This document shows positions 1 to 6,111 of a stretch of 6,111 bases of DNA, in pieces. This stretch comes from Nanohaloarchaea archaeon PL-Br10_U2g5 (lineage in GTDB: Archaea; Halobacteriota; Halobacteria; Halobacteriales; Haloferacaceae): positions 1-6,111 of the forward strand of contig LKMY01000116.1 in the NCBI GenBank assembly GCA_001564205.1. Direction: 5' to 3'. A program made the position numbers and the translations under genes. Below the pieces are notes generated by a model, which was given only the letters and a program-made list of their open reading frames with translations, was not told the origin of the DNA and did not search any database. Numbering within the stretch: position 1 is the first letter of the stretch; each line of letters starts with the position of its first letter.

Positions 1-41
1 AAGCTCGTACTCGCCGCGGTCGGAGGGCTGGACCAGGTGAC
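1..41. repeat. 41-base terminal direct repeat, left copy
   Basis: Identical over all 41 bases to 6071-6111, the other end of the window. Both copies lie in the same reading frame of the AglF-like gene, over the QPSDRGEYEL stretch. An exact match ending precisely at both window ends is what a circular or tandem-repeat contig with an assembly overlap looks like. Confidence 0.97.
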
Positions 42-156
42 ACGCGTGGAAGATAGCGGGCGTAAAGGTGTAGAAGCCGGTCATCACGAGGTTGCTCGGC
101 GGGTCGTCGGGCTTCTCGACGACCTCGTTCGGCTCCGTACATTTTTTAATGGACAT
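1..156 (-). pseudogene. AglF-like sugar-1-phosphate nucleotidyltransferase, N-terminally truncated (runs off the left edge)
   Basis: The minus strand reads in frame from an ATG at 156-154, preceded directly by an in-frame TAG, and stays open to base 1 (52 codons). After about ten unrelated-looking residues (MSIKKCTEPNE) it carries family hallmarks: VVEKPDDPPSNLV, the glycine-containing TGFYTFTPAIF strand, and DRGEYEL. These match the middle of RmlA/GalU/AglF-type enzymes that join a sugar-1-phosphate to a nucleotide; haloarchaeal AglF, a UTP-glucose-1-phosphate uridylyltransferase of the N-glycosylation pathway, is the closest match I recall. The first ~130 residues of the family, with the GxGTRLRP nucleotide loop and the Gly-Asp metal site, are absent, so the product could not be active. 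The frame continues exactly into 6070-5894 if the window ends are joined. Truncation is seen; the subfamily name is inference. Confidence 0.8.
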
Positions 157-234
157 CTAGTTCATACACCGATAGCGACGCCGCTAACCGTGATATAGTG
201 CGAGAACGTATCGATTCGACTGCCGTCAACCGTA

Positions 235-245
235 GTGGATAAATC
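235..245 (+). promoter_or_regulatory. Candidate leaderless promoter (TATA-like box) of glmU
   Basis: GGATAAAT places an A/T-rich core at 239-244, 25-30 bases before the ATG at 269. No Shine-Dalgarno sequence precedes that ATG. In haloarchaea this spacing means transcription starts at or within a few bases of the start codon. The box is weaker than the one before 2455. Confidence 0.55.
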
Positions 246-268
246 CTGTCCTGCCGTCAGCCTCGGAT

Positions 269-1480
269 ATGTACGGAGTCGTGCTCGCGGCCGGACGCGG
301 GACCCGAATGCGACCGCTGACGGACCGTCGCCCGAAACCGCTCTTACCGGTTGCGGATCGCTCGCTGCTCGAACGAGTGTTTGACACTGCTGTCGATGTG
401 ATCGACGAGTTCGTGGTCGTCACCGGCTACCGTGGCGAGGCGATCCGAGAGGCGATCGGCGAGTCGTACCGCGACCATCCGGTCAGCTACGTCGAGCAGG
501 CGGAGGCACTGGGGACGGCTCACGCCGTCGCGCAGGTCGAGCCCATCGTCGACGACGACTTCCTCGTGCTCAATGGCGACGTGGTCGTGGACGCGTCGCT
601 CCCCCGCGCGCTCGCCGATACCGACGGGACGGCGGTCGCGGCGACCGAGGTCCCGGACCCGCGGGCGTACGGTGTGCTCTCGACGGCCGACGACGGCTCG
701 CTCGCGGGGATCGTTGAAAAGCCCGACGACCCGCCGACGAACCTCGCGAACGTCGGCTGCTATGCGTTCGAACCTGCGGTGTTCGAGTACATCGACAGGA
801 CGCCCGAGAGCGAGCGCGGCGAGTACGAGATCACGACGACGATCGAGCTCCTGCTCGACGACGGCCACCGGATCGACGTGGCCCCGTACGAGGGCACGTG
901 GCTCGACGTCGGTCGCCCGTGGGAGCTGCTGGAGGCCAACGAGCTGGCGCTCGCGGAGCTGGAGGAGTCGGACGAAGCTGTTGCCGGCACCGTCGAGGAG
1001 AGCGTCCACCTGCACGGTCCGGTCGTCATCGAGAGGGGGGCGAGCGTGCGGTCGGGCGCCTACGTCGAGGGGCCGGCGCTGATCCGCGAGGGCGCGGAGG
1101 TCGGCCCGAACGCGTACGTCCGCGGGTCGACCGTGGTCGGTCCGGGCGCGCACGTCGGTCACTCGGTTGAGGTGAAGAACTCGGTACTCATGGCGGACGC
1201 GTCGGTCGGTCACCTCTCGTACGTCGGCGACTCGGTGCTCGGCCGCGAGGTGAACTTTGGCGCCGGCACGAACGTCGCTAACCTGCGACACGACGGCGCG
1301 AACGTCCGACTGACCGTCAAGGGGGACCGCGCTGACACCGGGCGGCGGAAGTTCGGGGCGATCGTCGGCGACGGCGCCAAAACGGGGATTAACACGTCGC
1401 TGAACGCAGGCATCAAACTGGGCGCGGGCGAGACGACGGGACCCGGGGAGGTGCTGACGCGGGATCGGCTCTCGGAGTAG
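269..1480 (+). CDS. glmU: Bifunctional GlmU: GlcNAc-1-P uridylyltransferase / GlcN-1-P N-acetyltransferase
   Basis: A 403-residue cytosolic enzyme for the last two steps to UDP-GlcNAc: acetyl transfer to glucosamine-1-phosphate, then UMP transfer from UTP. Residues 1-225 are the nucleotidyltransferase fold: AAGRGTRMRPLT (7-18), K23 in RPKP, LNGD (101-104), VEKPDDPP (149-156) and WLDVG (211-215). Residues ~245-395 form a left-handed beta-helix with repeated V/I-x-x-G hexapeptides. GHLSYVGDS (314-322) aligns with GHLTYLGDA of E. coli GlmU, so H315 and Y318 correspond to catalytic H363 and Y366; R285 and K303 fit R333 and K351. The lysine expected after DGAN is replaced, and NLRHDGANV through KTGIN follows the archaeal (Sulfolobus ST0452-like) form. 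The length equals the archaeal norm (about 400). Start chosen because the loop motif begins six residues in and a TATA-like box lies 25-30 bases upstream. It converges on vapC, 17 bases away. Confidence 0.93.
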   Translation: MYGVVLAAGRGTRMRPLTDRRPKPLLPVADRSLLERVFDTAVDVIDEFVVVTGYRGEAIREAIGESYRDHPVSYVEQAEALGTAHAVAQVEPIVDDDFLVLNGDVVVDASLPRALADTDGTAVAATEVPDPRAYGVLSTADDGSLAGIVEKPDDPPTNLANVGCYAFEPAVFEYIDRTPESERGEYEITTTIELLLDDGHRIDVAPYEGTWLDVGRPWELLEANELALAELEESDEAVAGTVEESVHLHGPVVIERGASVRSGAYVEGPALIREGAEVGPNAYVRGSTVVGPGAHVGHSVEVKNSVLMADASVGHLSYVGDSVLGREVNFGAGTNVANLRHDGANVRLTVKGDRADTGRRKFGAIVGDGAKTGINTSLNAGIKLGAGETTGPGEVLTRDRLSE

Positions 1481-1497
1481 TTGGGTGGATCTCGGTT

Positions 1498-1935
1498 CTA
1501 CACACCGTGGTCTCGGAATCGGTACAGGTCAACTTCGATAGGTAGATCGTCAAAATCATCGTCAGCCCCGGCGACGAGCGTCGCGTCACGTTGGCGGGCG
1601 AGCGCAACAGCGTATGTATCAGCAAGTGAGATGCTCCCATCGGCTTTCACTGCTGCTGCCAGTCGCCAGTCAGCCGCTTCAAGCTCCAAGCCCTGCCGTT
1701 CAAGAGTACGGATGTCTCGGTCAGCTTCCCGCAGCGAGGCGTCTGTCGGAACGTCATCGATGCCTTCGAACCGAGCAACGAGATAGAACACTTCACTCGC
1801 ATTTGTCTCGGTAAGGAATCCGTCAGTGTCGCCAGCGAAGACCTCGTCGAGAAGCTCAGCGACGGCTTCGTGGCCGGGTTCGTTGTACAGAAAGGCGATG
1901 ATCGCTTCAGTATCGAAGACGTAGCCGCCGCTCAT
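1498..1935 (-). CDS. vapC: VapC-type toxin, PIN-domain ribonuclease
   Basis: A 145-residue protein, a usual length for VapC. It shows the spaced acidic residues of a PIN domain: D8 in VFDTEAIIAFL, E48 in NASEVFYLVARF, D106 in SISLADTYAVALA, and D125 with neighbouring acids in LVAGADDDFDDL. These would bind Mg2+ and cut RNA; VapC proteins usually cleave tRNA or rRNA and block translation, but the target here is unknown. The start ATG (1935-1933) overlaps the stop of the antitoxin gene as ATGA, so the pair is translationally coupled. The gene ends 17 bases from the convergent glmU stop. Base composition is less GC-rich than the glm genes, which fits acquisition with its partner. All four acidic positions are present, so the toxin looks intact. 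The PIN assignment is firm; a toxin role rests on the antitoxin neighbour. Confidence 0.9.
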   Translation of the reverse strand: MSGGYVFDTEAIIAFLYNEPGHEAVAELLDEVFAGDTDGFLTETNASEVFYLVARFEGIDDVPTDASLREADRDIRTLERQGLELEAADWRLAAAVKADGSISLADTYAVALARQRDATLVAGADDDFDDLPIEVDLYRFRDHGV

Positions 1936-2228
1936 GCGTCCTTGGATGGGCGTAGCCGTTCAGCTCGTTCCTCTTCGTTGCGTTTTTCCTCATCCATCAT
2001 CCCACGAACCCGCTCCAGTACTTCGCCATGTTCGTGCTCGCCAGCGTGGATCCCATGTAGCTCATCCGGCGACGGAACCGGCTCAATGATGATACGGCCC
2101 TGCTCTTCGTAGACGAACACCTCGCCCGGCGTCTCAATCCCGAACTTTTCTCGCAGTCTCTTCGGAATCGTGGCCTGCCCCTTCTGAGACACGCGTACTA
2201 CCCTCGGTTCGTTTGTACTACTTGCCAT
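1932..2228 (-). CDS. vapB: VapB-type antitoxin, AbrB/MazE-like DNA-binding protein
   Basis: A 98-residue protein. Residues 9-52 form a swapped-hairpin AbrB/SpoVT domain: RVVRVSQKGQATIPKRLREKF, then GEVFVY and GRIIIEPV strands, the pattern of MazE/VapB DNA-binding antitoxins. Residues 53-98 are highly charged (HAGEHEHGEVLERV, EEKRNEEERAERL), probably helical, and likely the part that wraps and inhibits VapC (inference). Its TGA overlaps the vapC ATG by four bases, with the antitoxin first, the common order. A perfect 13-base palindrome lies just upstream of the ATG, a likely operator for self-repression. No ribosome binding site is seen, so the transcript is probably leaderless or short-leadered. 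The region is visibly lower in GC (33 of 60 bases in block 1981-2040) than the glm genes. Confidence 0.88.
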   Translation of the reverse strand: MASSTNEPRVVRVSQKGQATIPKRLREKFGIETPGEVFVYEEQGRIIIEPVPSPDELHGIHAGEHEHGEVLERVRGMMDEEKRNEEERAERLRPSKDA

Positions 2229-2230
2229 TG

Positions 2231-2243
2231 TTAGTAATACTAA
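2231..2243 (-). promoter_or_regulatory. Palindromic candidate operator of vapBC
   Basis: TTAGTAATACTAA is a perfect inverted repeat (TTAGTA, one central base, TACTAA), starting two bases upstream of the vapB ATG. A further TTAGTAA half-site lies at 2256-2262 inside the A/T-rich stretch TTTAGTAAC, about 30 bases before the ATG, where a TATA box would sit. Bound VapB-VapC at these sites would cover the start point and the core promoter. AbrB-family antitoxins are known to repress their own operons; binding here is inferred. Confidence 0.55.
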
Positions 2244-2290
2244 TACAGGTCTGTGTTACTAAAGCTACCGCAGTCAAACTATTTACGATG

Positions 2291-2300
2291 TTATATAATA
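2291..2300. promoter_or_regulatory. TATA-like A/T stretch in the vapB-glmU2 spacer
   Basis: TTATATAATA is the most A/T-rich block of the spacer and can be read on either strand. On the minus strand it lies ~63-72 bases before the vapB ATG and could be an upstream promoter with a leader of about 35-40 bases. On the plus strand no gene follows at the right distance. Direction and use are uncertain. Confidence 0.3.
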
Positions 2301-2339
2301 CTCCACGACTACTGTATCAGGAGCGCGGAAGCGGCTCTC

Positions 2340-2371
2340 AAAAAAGTCTCCGGTGTTGCGACACCGGAGAC
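2340..2371 (-). terminator. Hairpin followed by T-run on the minus strand
   Basis: GTCTCCGGTGT (2346-2356) and ACACCGGAGAC (2361-2371) form a perfect 11-base-pair stem with a TGCG loop. Read on the minus strand the stem is followed at once by six T residues (complement of 2340-2345), as in an intrinsic terminator. No minus-strand gene lies upstream to need it. It may end an antisense or small RNA, or be a remnant of a mobile element. The hairpin is certain; its function is not. Confidence 0.5.
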
Positions 2372-2375
2372 CGCA

Positions 2376-2388
2376 CTGGTTGAACCAG
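2376..2388. repeat. Small inverted repeat
   Basis: CTGGTTGAACCAG is a perfect palindrome with 6-base arms and one central base, four bases away from the larger hairpin. Together they would give a minus-strand RNA two consecutive stem-loops. It could instead be an operator for the glmU2-glmS promoter, which begins ~35 bases downstream. Confidence 0.45.
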
Positions 2389-2422
2389 CAGCCACGACGC
2401 GCTCGGACATCCAACCGCGAGC

Positions 2423-2432
2423 GATTTAAATT
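2423..2432 (+). promoter_or_regulatory. TATA box of the glmU2-glmS operon
   Basis: GATTTAAATT has its TTTAAA core at 2425-2430, 25-30 bases before the ATG at 2455, and no ribosome binding site precedes that ATG. This is the standard arrangement of a haloarchaeal leaderless promoter, and it fixes the start of the downstream gene at 2455 instead of the upstream in-frame ATG at 2353. The core is self-complementary, so it could also fire to the left. Confidence 0.75.
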
Positions 2433-2454
2433 GCGGGCGGGCGACGGTTGCGAC

Positions 2455-3639
2455 ATGAGCGACGACCCCGTGACGGCAGTAATCCTCGCCGCGGGCGAGG
2501 GACGGCGGTTAGAACCGCTGACGAACCGGCGACCGAAGCCGATGGTCCCCGTGGCGAATCGCCCGTTGCTCGAACACGTCGTCGAGGCCGTGACCGCGGC
2601 GGGGATAGAGCGGATCGTCCTCGTCGTCGGGTACAGACAGGAGCGCATCCGGAACCACTTCGGTGACGGCGATGACTGGGGCGTGACGATAGAGTACGTC
2701 GAGCAGCCGACGCAGCTAGGGACCGGCCACGCCGTCTTACAGGCCGAACCCGTTGTCGACGCCCCGTTCGTGGTGCTCAACGGCGACCGGATCGTCGACG
2801 CCGACGCGGTGTCGACCGTGCGCGACCGCCTCCGCGACGGCGATGGCCCCGTAATTACCGTCACCGCCGTGAAGACGCCCCGCGACTACGGCGTCGTCCA
2901 GCTCGACGGCGACCGCGTCGCGGCGATCGACGAGAAGCCCGAGGGACCGGTAGACACCAACCGCATCAACGCCGGCGTCTACGGCTTCTCCCCCGCCATA
3001 TTCGACGCGATCCGCGCGACGAACACGGCTGGAGAGCTGGCGCTCACCGCGACACTGAACGAGCTTGCCGACCGAGACGGAGTGACTGGCGTGGGGTACG
3101 ACGGGCGCTGGCTCGACGTATCGAACCTCTGGGACGTGCTCTCGGTCAACGCGGCGCTGATTCACGACAGCGACCACGCCCGCGACGCGTCCGTGGCGGG
3201 CGGGCGCGTCGCCGACACCGTCACCGTCTCTGACGACGTCGTCCTCGCCGGCAACGTCCGAATCGGGCCGAACGCCACGCTGAGCGGGGCGACAGCGGTC
3301 GGCAGTAACGTCACGGTCGCGGCCAACGCGGTCGTCGAGAACAGCGTGGTGCTCTCCGACACCGTCATCGAGCCGGGCGCGGTCGTCCGCGACGCCGTCG
3401 TCGCCGGCAACGCGCGGATCGGACCGAACGCGACTGTCGTCGGGGGTGACGCGACGGTCGTCGTCGGCGACGCCGTCCACCGCGGCGTGACGCTCGGCGG
3501 CGTCGTCGGCGACAACGCGTCGATCGGCGGCGGCGCGACGCTCACAGACGGCGCCGTGGTCGGCGGCGACGTGCAGGCCGAAGCGGGGGTCGTGATCGAC
3601 GGGCGAGTCGAGTCCGGCGCGGTCGTGCGGAGGGGGTAA
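2455..3639 (+). CDS. GlmU-like sugar-1-phosphate nucleotidyltransferase with left-handed beta-helix, no acetyltransferase signature
   Basis: A 394-residue paralogue of the upstream GlmU. Residues 1-230 are the nucleotidyltransferase domain: LAAGEGRRLEPLT (11-23), K28 in RPKP, LNGD (108-111), DEKPEG (159-164), NAGVYGF (172-178) and WLDV (219-222). The loop has Arg where most relatives have Thr (GxGTR becomes GEGRR). Residues ~245-392 are a beta-helix of V/I-x-x-(G/N) hexapeptides, unusually rich in Val, Ala and Gly. The GHLxYxGD acetyltransferase motif and the following Asn signature of GlmU are absent, so the domain is probably structural or binds another ligand. It likely makes a UDP- or dTDP-sugar, perhaps UDP-GlcNAc, in partnership with GlmS, whose ATG follows its stop by two bases. 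Start 2455 is chosen because of the TATA box 25-30 bases upstream; the 34 extra codons from 2353 run through a hairpin. Substrate is not determinable from sequence. Confidence 0.9.
   Translation: MSDDPVTAVILAAGEGRRLEPLTNRRPKPMVPVANRPLLEHVVEAVTAAGIERIVLVVGYRQERIRNHFGDGDDWGVTIEYVEQPTQLGTGHAVLQAEPVVDAPFVVLNGDRIVDADAVSTVRDRLRDGDGPVITVTAVKTPRDYGVVQLDGDRVAAIDEKPEGPVDTNRINAGVYGFSPAIFDAIRATNTAGELALTATLNELADRDGVTGVGYDGRWLDVSNLWDVLSVNAALIHDSDHARDASVAGGRVADTVTVSDDVVLAGNVRIGPNATLSGATAVGSNVTVAANAVVENSVVLSDTVIEPGAVVRDAVVAGNARIGPNATVVGGDATVVVGDAVHRGVTLGGVVGDNASIGGGATLTDGAVVGGDVQAEAGVVIDGRVESGAVVRRG
3629..3633 (+). promoter_or_regulatory. Ribosome binding site of glmS
   Basis: GGAGG, complementary to the 3' end of archaeal 16S rRNA, lies eight bases before the glmS ATG and overlaps the last codons of the preceding gene. 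As the only clear Shine-Dalgarno site seen in the window, it fits an internal operon gene translated from a polycistronic mRNA. Confidence 0.7.
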
Positions 3640-3641
3640 TC

Positions 3642-5501
3642 ATGTGCGGGATCATCGGGTACATCGGTCAGTTGCACGAGGGCGGAGAAGCGAAGGGAGC
3701 GACGGACGGCGGACCGCCCGAAAGCGTCGGCGGGATCGTCCACCGCGGCCTGAAGAACTTGGAGTACCGCGGGTACGACTCCGCGGGCGTCGCGCTCGTC
3801 AGCCCGACCAGCGGGCTCACTGTGGCGAAACGGTCGGGCGAGGTTGACGCGCTGCCGGTGCCGGACGTGCCCGACGCGACGCTCGGTGTCGGTCACACCC
3901 GGTGGAGCACGCACGGCCCGCCCACGGACGCCAACGCGCACCCGCACACCGACGAGGCGGGCGAGGTGGCGGTCGTCCACAACGGGATCGTCGAGAACTA
4001 CGAGACGCTCAAAGCGGAACTTTCAGACCACGAGTTCACGAGCGACACGGACACAGAGGTCATTCCCCACCTGCTAGCGGAGGCGCTCGCGGCCGATCCC
4101 GACGCCGACCTTCTCGCGGCGGTCCGACGCGTCGAGGACCGCTTGGAGGGGAGCTACGCGATTTGTGCGGTCCGCGAGGGTGACGATCGGGTGGTCGTCG
4201 CGCGCCGCGGGAGCCCCCTCGTCTTGGGCTGCGGCGAGGACGCCTCGTTCGTCGCGAGCGACGTGACGGCGTTCTTGGAACACACCCGCGACGTGACCTA
4301 TCTAGAAGACGGCGACGTGGCGTCCGTGAGAGCCGACGGCGTCTCCGTCTTTCACGACGGCGAGCCGGTCGACCGCGGGACCGAGCGGGTTACGTGGGAG
4401 GCCGACGCCGCGGAGAAGGGCGGCTACGAACACTACATGCGCAAAGAGATCCACGAACAGCCGGAGGCGCTCCGGCAGACGATCGCGGGGCGGCTCGATA
4501 TCGACGCCGGCGATGCCGACCTCGACGTCTCGTTCCCGCCGGGCTTTCTCGCCGACCTCGAAGAGATACAGATCGTCGCCTGCGGCACCTCGAACTACGC
4601 CGGGCGGTACGCGGCGCAGCTGTTCGAGGAGCTGTCGGGCGTCCGCGCAACCGTCGAGATCGCCAGCGAGTACGAGTTCGGCGCGGGCCGGAGCCCGGAC
4701 CGGACGCTCGTCGTCGCCGTGACCCAAAGCGGGGAGACGGCCGACACCCTCGGGGCGGTCCGGCGGGCGAACGCGGCCGGTGCGCGGACGTTCGCGGTGA
4801 CAAACACCCTCGGGAGCACGGTGACCCGCGAGGTCGACGGGACGGCCTTTATCAGGGCCGGCCCGGAGATCGGCGTCGCGGCGACGAAGACGTTCGCGTC
4901 GCAGGTGGCGACGCTCGCGATGCTCGCCGTGGCGATCGGTCGGGACCGCGGGGCGCTCGCTGCGAGCGACGCGCGGACGGTACTGGAGGACTTACAGCGG
5001 CTCCCGGGAGCGGTCCAGCAGGTGCTCGACGAGGAGCCCGTGGTGCTGGGGGCCGCCCGGGAGTTCCAGGACAGCGAGGCGTTCTTTTTCATCGGGCGCG
5101 CGCTGGGCGTGCCCGTCGCTCTTGAGGGTGCGTTGAAGCTCAAGGAGATCTCCTACGATCACGCCGAGGGGTTCGCGGCAGGCGAACTGAAACACGGGCC
5201 CCTCGCACTAGTGACGCCCGATACGCCCGTGTTGGCCGTGTTGACAGAAGCTGGTCGGGCCCGCGAGACGATGAACAACGTCACCGAGGCGCAGACGCGC
5301 GGCGCGCCCGCGTTGGGCTGTGTGAGCGCTGGGAGAGAGTACGCGACGCTCGACGCCTCGTTCACGGTTCCGGACGTGGGAATCGTCGAGCCGCTGGTGG
5401 CGAACGTTTACTTGCAGCTGTTCGCGTACCACGTCGCCAACGAGAAGGGGCGGCCGATCGACAAGCCGCGGAACTTGGCGAAGAGCGTGACGGTGGAGTG
5501 A
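3642..5501 (+). CDS. glmS: Glutamine--fructose-6-phosphate aminotransferase (isomerizing), GlmS
   Basis: A 619-residue cytosolic enzyme making glucosamine-6-phosphate from fructose-6-phosphate and glutamine, the committed step to UDP-GlcNAc. Residues 2-~235 are the class II glutaminase: C2 (nucleophile after Met removal) in MCGIIGYIG, LEYRGYDSAG (40-49), HTRWSTHG (85-92), HNGIVENYE (113-121) and D137 in SDTDTEV. KGGYEHYMRKEIHEQP (259-274) is the linker. Two SIS sugar-phosphate isomerase domains follow: ACGTSNYAGR (313-322), TQSGET (361-366), then ALEGALKLKEISYDHAEG (493-510) with K499 and E502, and H518 in ELKHGPLAL. The C-terminal KPRNLAKSVTVE holds the interdomain lysine K614 (E. coli K603). 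All key residues are present. Compared with the E. coli sequence as I recall it, about 16 extra residues sit between G6 and the LEYRGYD motif. It is co-transcribed with the upstream nucleotidyltransferase, starting two bases after its stop. Confidence 0.97.
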   Translation: MCGIIGYIGQLHEGGEAKGATDGGPPESVGGIVHRGLKNLEYRGYDSAGVALVSPTSGLTVAKRSGEVDALPVPDVPDATLGVGHTRWSTHGPPTDANAHPHTDEAGEVAVVHNGIVENYETLKAELSDHEFTSDTDTEVIPHLLAEALAADPDADLLAAVRRVEDRLEGSYAICAVREGDDRVVVARRGSPLVLGCGEDASFVASDVTAFLEHTRDVTYLEDGDVASVRADGVSVFHDGEPVDRGTERVTWEADAAEKGGYEHYMRKEIHEQPEALRQTIAGRLDIDAGDADLDVSFPPGFLADLEEIQIVACGTSNYAGRYAAQLFEELSGVRATVEIASEYEFGAGRSPDRTLVVAVTQSGETADTLGAVRRANAAGARTFAVTNTLGSTVTREVDGTAFIRAGPEIGVAATKTFASQVATLAMLAVAIGRDRGALAASDARTVLEDLQRLPGAVQQVLDEEPVVLGAAREFQDSEAFFFIGRALGVPVALEGALKLKEISYDHAEGFAAGELKHGPLALVTPDTPVLAVLTEAGRARETMNNVTEAQTRGAPALGCVSAGREYATLDASFTVPDVGIVEPLVANVYLQLFAYHVANEKGRPIDKPRNLAKSVTVE

Positions 5502-5503
5502 CG

Positions 5504-5526
5504 GCCGCTCGCGGCTGACGCCGTCA
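5504..5526 (+). terminator. Two adjacent small hairpins after the glmS stop
   Basis: GCCGC-TC-GCGGC (5504-5515) is followed without a gap by TGACG-C-CGTCA (5516-5526). Both are perfect short inverted repeats beginning three bases after the glmS stop codon. There is no T-run, so a role in ending the operon or protecting its 3' end is only a possibility; GC-rich DNA makes such short repeats common. Confidence 0.3.
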
Positions 5527-5631
5527 ACCGCAGTACGGGTAGTATTGGTTACGCCGTTCTCTCAATACAGCCGGAACAGGCCATATTATGCGGCTGTCAC
5601 AGACGCGGACCCGCTCGGGAGCCGCGGTCGC

Positions 5632-5831
5632 TGTACAGAGCCCGAGTCGGCGCTGGGATCGCGTTCGCTCGTCGTCCGCGAACTCTACTTCCTCGTTACC
5701 GGCTGGGTGGCTCAGTCTGCTGTGGACGACCGTTGCGTCGCTTCGCGCGGTCACAGTCGTGGGGCCCAGTCGCTGTCTGGATGCTCAACCGACTCCCGTA
5801 CGTCACGTCGCTGTACCGGTTTTACCGATAG
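5632..5831 (+). pseudogene. Frameshifted remnant of a YccF-domain membrane protein
   Basis: Three reading frames in turn give pieces of one recognisable sequence. From about 5632: EPESALGSRSLVVRELYFLVTGW (to 5706) in the first. Then 5708-5764 gives WLSLLWTTVASLRAVTVVG. Then 5766-5828 gives PVAVWMLNRLPYVTSLYR and FYR, followed by TAG at 5829-5831. Read together they match the C-terminal repeat of the YccF (DUF307) inner-membrane family: GWW..LLW...A.....T.VGLPV..WM.NRLP. The repair needs removal of one G near 5707 and addition of two bases near 5765. The first YccF repeat, expected upstream, is not visible in 5527-5630, so the gene is also truncated. YccF proteins are small membrane proteins of unknown function. 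The frames are seen; the family name is from memory of haloarchaeal homologues. The rest of the 392-base interval after glmS shows nothing else I can support. Confidence 0.6.
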
Positions 5832-5864
5832 CGGTGAGGTACGTGTTGCGACCTGAACTGCTCC

Positions 5865-5877
5865 GAGCGACTCGCTC
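5865..5877. repeat. Small inverted repeat between the YccF remnant and the AglF-like gene
   Basis: GAGCGACTCGCTC is a perfect palindrome with 6-base arms and one central base. It sits 16 bases beyond the stop of the AglF-like gene, on its 3' side, so it may help end that transcript; no T-run follows. Chance is a fair alternative in this GC-rich DNA. Confidence 0.3.
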
Positions 5878-5893
5878 GTCTCCCGGTGCCTCG

Positions 5894-6111
5894 TCAGTCG
5901 ACGACGGCTTCCGCCTCTCCGTCTGCGTCCGCTTCGCCGTTTGCTTCGTCGTCGAGTCGGTCCTCGGCGCGGTCGCGGTCCTCGGGGAACCCCACGTCAA
6001 TTCTCCATCCGTCCAGCCGAATCGCGTCGATGGTGCGACCGGACTGGATGAGCAGATCGATGGCGTCGGGAAGCTCGTACTCGCCGCGGTCGGAGGGCTG
6101 GACCAGGTGAC
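5894..6111 (-). CDS. AglF-like sugar-1-phosphate nucleotidyltransferase, C-terminal part (runs off the right edge)
   Basis: The minus strand is open from the right edge to a TGA at 5896-5894 (71 residues visible after two leading bases). It reads HLVQPSDRGEYELPDAID, LLIQSGRTIDAIRLDG, WRIDVGFPEDRDRAEDRL, then an acidic tail of D, E, A and G ending in AVVD. WRIDVG is the conserved W-x-D-x-G near the end of RmlA/AglF-type catalytic domains, where the Asp helps hold the metal. The acidic tail is a typical haloarchaeal adaptation. It lacks any beta-helix, unlike the two GlmU-type proteins, so it is the short ~245-residue kind. The first 41 bases from the edge equal bases 1-41, and the joined frame gives a 110-codon gene that lacks the N-terminal half; whether a complete copy exists elsewhere cannot be seen. 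The gene converges with the glmS operon. Confidence 0.85.
   Translation of the reverse strand, partial: HLVQPSDRGEYELPDAIDLLIQSGRTIDAIRLDGWRIDVGFPEDRDRAEDRLDDEANGEADADGEAEAVVD
6071..6111. repeat. 41-base terminal direct repeat, right copy
   Basis: Identical to 1-41. Overlapping the two copies closes the sequence into a 6070-base circle and keeps the AglF-like frame open through the joint (codon boundary between bases 1 and 6070 of the minus strand). Confidence 0.97.

Follow-up and report, generated by a model that had tools for sequence, protein, structure and literature searches.

Contig LKMY01000116.1 of Nanohaloarchaea archaeon PL-Br10_U2g5 (assembly GCA_001564205.1) begins and ends with the same 41 bases, and both ends lie in pieces of the gene aglF. 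Is it a closed unit of about 6 kb, or a stretch of linear chromosome that only appears closed? We refer to the whole stretch analyzed, all 6,111 nucleotides, as the window; between the aglF pieces it carries glmU, a vapBC-like gene pair, a GlmU-like gene, and glmS. The original prediction interpreted it as a 6070-base circular or tandemly repeated unit, and it was right about the border, the frame formed across the joined ends, and the gene content. However, these features are better explained without a circle or tandem unit, because the ends fall inside a multi-copy gene, paralogs of this gene share exact runs of such length, relatives have copies and scraps of it close to the glm locus, and the frame remains a fragment even after joining. 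We consider it more probable, with some reservation, that the window is a linear chromosomal segment ending in two aglF copies.

The terminal repeat and the joined frame

The terminal repeat is a real feature of the contig. Bases 1–41 and 6071–6111 are identical, with the two copies lying at the window ends as had been claimed, and 41 bases is the longest terminal overlap; there is no longer border. Within the 6070-base unit we find no further same-strand exact repeat of at least 14 bp. When the ends are joined (6111 to 42), a single open minus-strand frame of 110 residues results, in agreement with the 110-codon AglF-like frame described in the original prediction.

This frame matches the NCBIfam model NF041313 (AglF) only at model positions 151–234 of 234, with 150.6 bits against a cut-off of 400, so joining the ends restores no gene. 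We compared the window with four intact aglF genes in bins of 15 bases: Identity is 13–15 of 15 at bases 42–116, 10–11 of 15 at bases 117–131, and 6–7 of 15 at bases 132–146. Judged from these alignments, the joined frame holds just the C-terminal third of AglF and breaks off near base 127, and any junction would sit within or beside bases 128–268. The features at the two ends are as follows:

1..41, inside the aglF homology: left copy of the 41-bp terminal direct repeat (exact border)
1..127, minus strand: left aglF piece, with the 5′ part of the gene absent; DNA matches to aglF copies cover 2–127, and the binned identity fades near 127
128..268: 141 bases separating the aglF piece from glmU, of which approximately 229–268 are conserved upstream of glmU in relatives
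5894..6111, minus strand: right aglF piece, an open reading frame (ORF) holding the 3′ end of the gene, including the stop codon, and open at the window end (NF041313 positions 183–234)
6071..6111, inside the aglF homology: right copy of the 41-bp terminal direct repeat (exact border)

Copies of aglF in Halorubrum

By its sequence matches, the DNA of the window is Halorubrum-like. In a search of 52 genomes of the genus of Halorubrum lipolyticum, the nearest glmU DNA has 88% identity, and GlmS is 86% identical to that of H. lipolyticum and 85% to that of H. kocurii. The top match to the GlmU-like protein, among the best 120 of 599 matches in a large protein set, is 94% identical and belongs to a cluster of nine member sequences with the source codes lgn and ena.

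There are at least 19 genomes with two or more aglF copies among the matches listed. We compared 17 of these (leaving out G014 and G022), which contribute 38 copies and 25 within-genome pairs; together with two single copies they form a set of 40 references. Exact runs of at least 41 bp between paralogs occur in seven of the 25 pairs and in seven of the 17 genomes, one pair per genome, with lengths of 41, 45, 56, 62, 92, 102, and 152 bp. The claim that the 41-bp match is unlikely by chance therefore stands in one sense, since the match is no random coincidence, but it fails when set against paralogs of the same gene. The 41-mer of the window itself is found with one to three mismatches in 10 of the 52 genomes and is exact in none. 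The identity of the ends is thus not a genus-wide constant but is of a kind possible for paralogs within one genome. One 80,506-base contig (G006:C6; L143, L144) carries oppositely oriented aglF copies, one close to either end, with 152 exact bases in common.

We then compared the glmU loci of 27 genomes. The flanks differ in length, so the counts of aglF are lower bounds, and matches below 45% identity were not listed. All or part of aglF lies in the flanks of seven of the 27 loci (seven genomes), as eight pieces that are all on the minus strand relative to the glm genes, as in the window. Full copies occur in G001, G032, G037, and G043, and 3′ pieces in G001, G018, G028, and G031, the piece in G018 being short (27 residues at 59%). 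The weak plus-strand matches in G016 (52%) and G006 (46%), both N-terminal, were excluded as other nucleotidyltransferases.

The pieces are found on either side of the glm genes. In G031 there is an aglF scrap with in-frame stops, on the minus strand, 1,467 bp upstream of glmU; in G001, G018, G028, G032, and G037, the pieces are 1.9–8.3 kb downstream of glmS. G043 has an aglF copy 1.6 kb downstream of glmU, with no glmU-like gene or glmS seen in the stretch examined. In G028 the glm locus is bracketed by a full aglF (503840–503965) and a 3′ piece (569884–570008) in direct orientation, 66 kb apart, and this pair has 92 exact bases in common.

A cut segment or a closed unit

The apparent closure could arise as follows. 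A piece of Halorubrum chromosome (glmU, vapBC, the glmU-like gene, and glmS) would be flanked on both sides by a minus-strand aglF copy or scrap, forming a direct repeat, and the two aglF pieces would have an exact 41-bp run in common. A direct repeat no shorter than the word length of the assembler would create a loop in the graph. The assembler, unable to pass the repeat, would extend the contig into it from both sides and keep the repeat at both ends, and the contig would look closed. We infer that this genome contains two such aglF pieces and that the border is their common run.

We examined this mechanism in a toy assembly, an error-free, one-strand graph of a linear chromosome carrying real aglF paralog pairs, in 20 runs. 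With the pair from G002 (41-bp run), the contig after extension carries a 41-bp border at k = 31 and k = 41; at k = 55, the pair from G037 gives a 62-bp border and that from G042 a 56-bp border. There is no border after extension in 16 of the 20 runs, including all five for a pair that shares 17 bp only. An alternative of this general kind, a k-mer overlap around a repeat cycle, was already named in the original prediction.

The position of the ends also bears on the question. The homology to aglF comprises 304 of the 6070 bases; for a circle opened at random, the chance of a break inside aglF is about 5%. According to the legend of Extended Data Fig. 3 of the CheckV paper (PMC8116208), breaks in circular templates appear to fall at a random location, and the repeats are equal to k (for example 55, 77, and 99); the 41 bp of the window is not among the lengths named there. 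CheckV calls complete genomes from direct terminal repeat (DTR) contigs, in which both ends carry a repeat of 20 bp or more, and the window, with 41 exact bp, has such a repeat. Unlike those contigs as CheckV presents them, the window has purely chromosomal genes and a repeat that lies inside a multi-copy gene; the filters described for CheckV are aimed at low-complexity or highly repeated ends, not at paralogs (PMC8116208).

Several observations weigh against a segment cut at two aglF copies. At the window's own site a full 41/41 match is rare, being found in one of the 25 aglF pairs, with a single-base difference in two more. The toy graph yields a border in only four of 20 runs, those in which k equals the repeat length or falls somewhat short of it. 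The 40 references are ranked alike by the left and the right aglF piece (rho 0.47; the median is 0.43 for 40 single genes and 0.12 for 50 within-genome chimeras, whose 5%–95% range is −0.41 to 0.52), and the best-ranked reference is identical for both halves, with ties. Such agreement is expected if the halves belong to one gene, and two copies of one subtype could show it too. A single duplication or excision event would account for both the truncated aglF and the border. In a control restricted to G002, its two glm clusters share an exact 45-bp run; aglF is thus not the sole part of the window able to repeat, and the place of the ends is less telling. No aglF directly abutting glmU appears among the matches listed for the 52 genomes. 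Finally, for viral contigs, terminal repeats are described as usually a good sign of complete genomes (CheckV, PMC8116208).

Alternatively, the window could represent a real closed unit of about 6.07 kb: the glm locus excised as a circle or amplified in tandem, with a broken aglF joined near base 127 to the region upstream of glmU. We regard this as possible but distinctly less probable than a cut segment. In addition to the exact border, the open joined frame, and the two aglF halves that behave as one gene, five relatives (those named above with aglF downstream of glmS) have the gene in the needed orientation. Given that arrangement, a duplication or excision running from inside aglF to upstream of glmU would yield the order seen in the window, and the lack of a direct aglF–glmU join among the listed matches is what would be expected of a new junction. 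Gene amplification is reportedly found in mevinolin-resistant Haloferax, and it would likewise give a head-to-tail unit.

On the other side, the signature of a closed unit is mimicked by aglF paralogs, and a random break would fall in the aglF part with only the 5% chance given above, although the position of the ends would also be accounted for by a circle if its 41-mer recurs in another aglF copy elsewhere. We judge a tandem duplication that kept an intact parent aglF less likely, as contigs should then, we expect, end at the junction near base 127, which is 86 bases from the actual ends. The junction near base 127 has no counterpart in the matches listed for the 52 relatives, yet G031 also has an aglF scrap upstream of glmU. 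No replication gene was found in a Pfam scan of the six main proteins and six alternative ORFs, which did not extend to other short ORFs; the six alternative ORFs have no Pfam match of any kind. Nor did we find a small plasmid, or a viral record of haloarchaeal type, with this content. A megablast search of 72,556 plasmid records returned 13 records with some similarity; in none does a single place cover 80% of the query, and the shortest has 51,955 bases. The eight viral contigs with a relative of GlmS reach at best 40% identity. The original prediction held that the window has no replication initiator and that an ordinary plasmid is improbable, and nothing plasmid-like was seen in these scans and records. 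A literature search, judged by titles and the starts of abstracts, found no report of aglF repeats or circles at the glm locus, which is no proof of absence.

Another assembly accident, such as a circle-like path built from the reads of several strains or from an aglF copy elsewhere in the genome, or a chimeric join of an aglF piece to the region upstream of glmU, is improbable: it is favored by the close similarity of aglF copies between and within genomes, but the open frames of the main genes give no sign of a chimera (not tested directly).

Copies or scraps of aglF that flank the glm locus in direct orientation might serve as crossover sites, where recombination would pop out a 6.07-kb circle or amplify the locus tandemly and leave recurrent 3′ aglF scars near the glm genes of Halorubrum; we think this rather unlikely. 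The 3′ aglF pieces near the glm genes that lack a 5′ part all have one orientation (L203 9108–9317; L178 13704–13940; L181, reverse complement, 12188–12268; L185, reverse complement, 8475–8612), and these pieces in four genomes are possibly scars of exchange at aglF. The likeliest cause of the apparent closure is an ordinary one, namely a chromosomal segment that ends in two copies of a multi-copy gene because the assembly was cut there.

Gene content and significance

The genes and remnants between the two aglF pieces are as follows:

269..1480, plus strand: glmU, archaeal bifunctional sugar-1-phosphate nucleotidylyltransferase/acetyltransferase (TIGR03992, Arch_glmU; 529.9 bits, cut-off 292.1)
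1498..1935, minus strand: PIN-domain toxin gene, VapC-like (PF01850)
1932..2228, minus strand: AbrB/MazE-type antitoxin gene, VapB-like (PF04014, TIGR01439)
2455..3639, plus strand: gene for a GlmU-like sugar nucleotidyltransferase (TIGR03992; 275.3 bits, below the cut-off of 292.1)
3642..5501, plus strand: glmS (TIGR01135; 701.9 bits, cut-off 418.05)
5613..5825, plus strand: relic of the 3′ end of a yccF-like gene, spread over three frames, between glmS and aglF

This is the content originally described, except that the gene called glmU2, at 275.3 bits, scores under the cut-off of the archaeal GlmU model. The chromosomal glm locus of Halorubrum (glmU, the glmU-like gene, and glmS) has the same gene set, order, and strand as the window, and the glmU-like gene adjoins glmS in relatives where both are seen in full. 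The window differs from it in having vapBC between glmU and the glmU-like gene, the yccF relic, and the flanking aglF pieces. In relatives, glmU and the glmU-like gene are separated by either a short gap or one of approximately 7–11 kb (L176, L179, L180, L183, L186, L187, L188, L191, L192, L197, and L202), so this gap, the site of vapBC in the window, looks like an insertion site. The top DNA matches to the vapBC-like pair (window bases 1481–2454) are 86%–89% identical and lie in G118, G117, G153, and G057, genomes from a family-wide search outside the 52-genome set.

The stretch at 5613–5825 is matched in 21 of the 52 Halorubrum genomes. It was first suspected of being an RNA or a remnant of a sugar transferase, and both were rejected in favor of the broken 3′ end of a yccF-like gene, an identity given by PF03733 in the intact gene of a relative; no structured RNA was found at Rfam gathering thresholds. 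The intact yccF-like gene occurs at a different place in L122, L123, and L125, near a frame that resembles an acyl-CoA synthetase (a neighbor named from its translation).

Terminal direct repeats serve to call contigs complete circles, and this case shows that a conserved multi-copy gene is able to give a chromosomal segment the signature of a circle. A real circle would mean that a central sugar pathway in an archaeon has a unit that can be excised or amplified. The 3′ scraps of aglF that lie in one orientation near the glm genes point to aglF as a possible crossover point for the exchange of surface-sugar genes.

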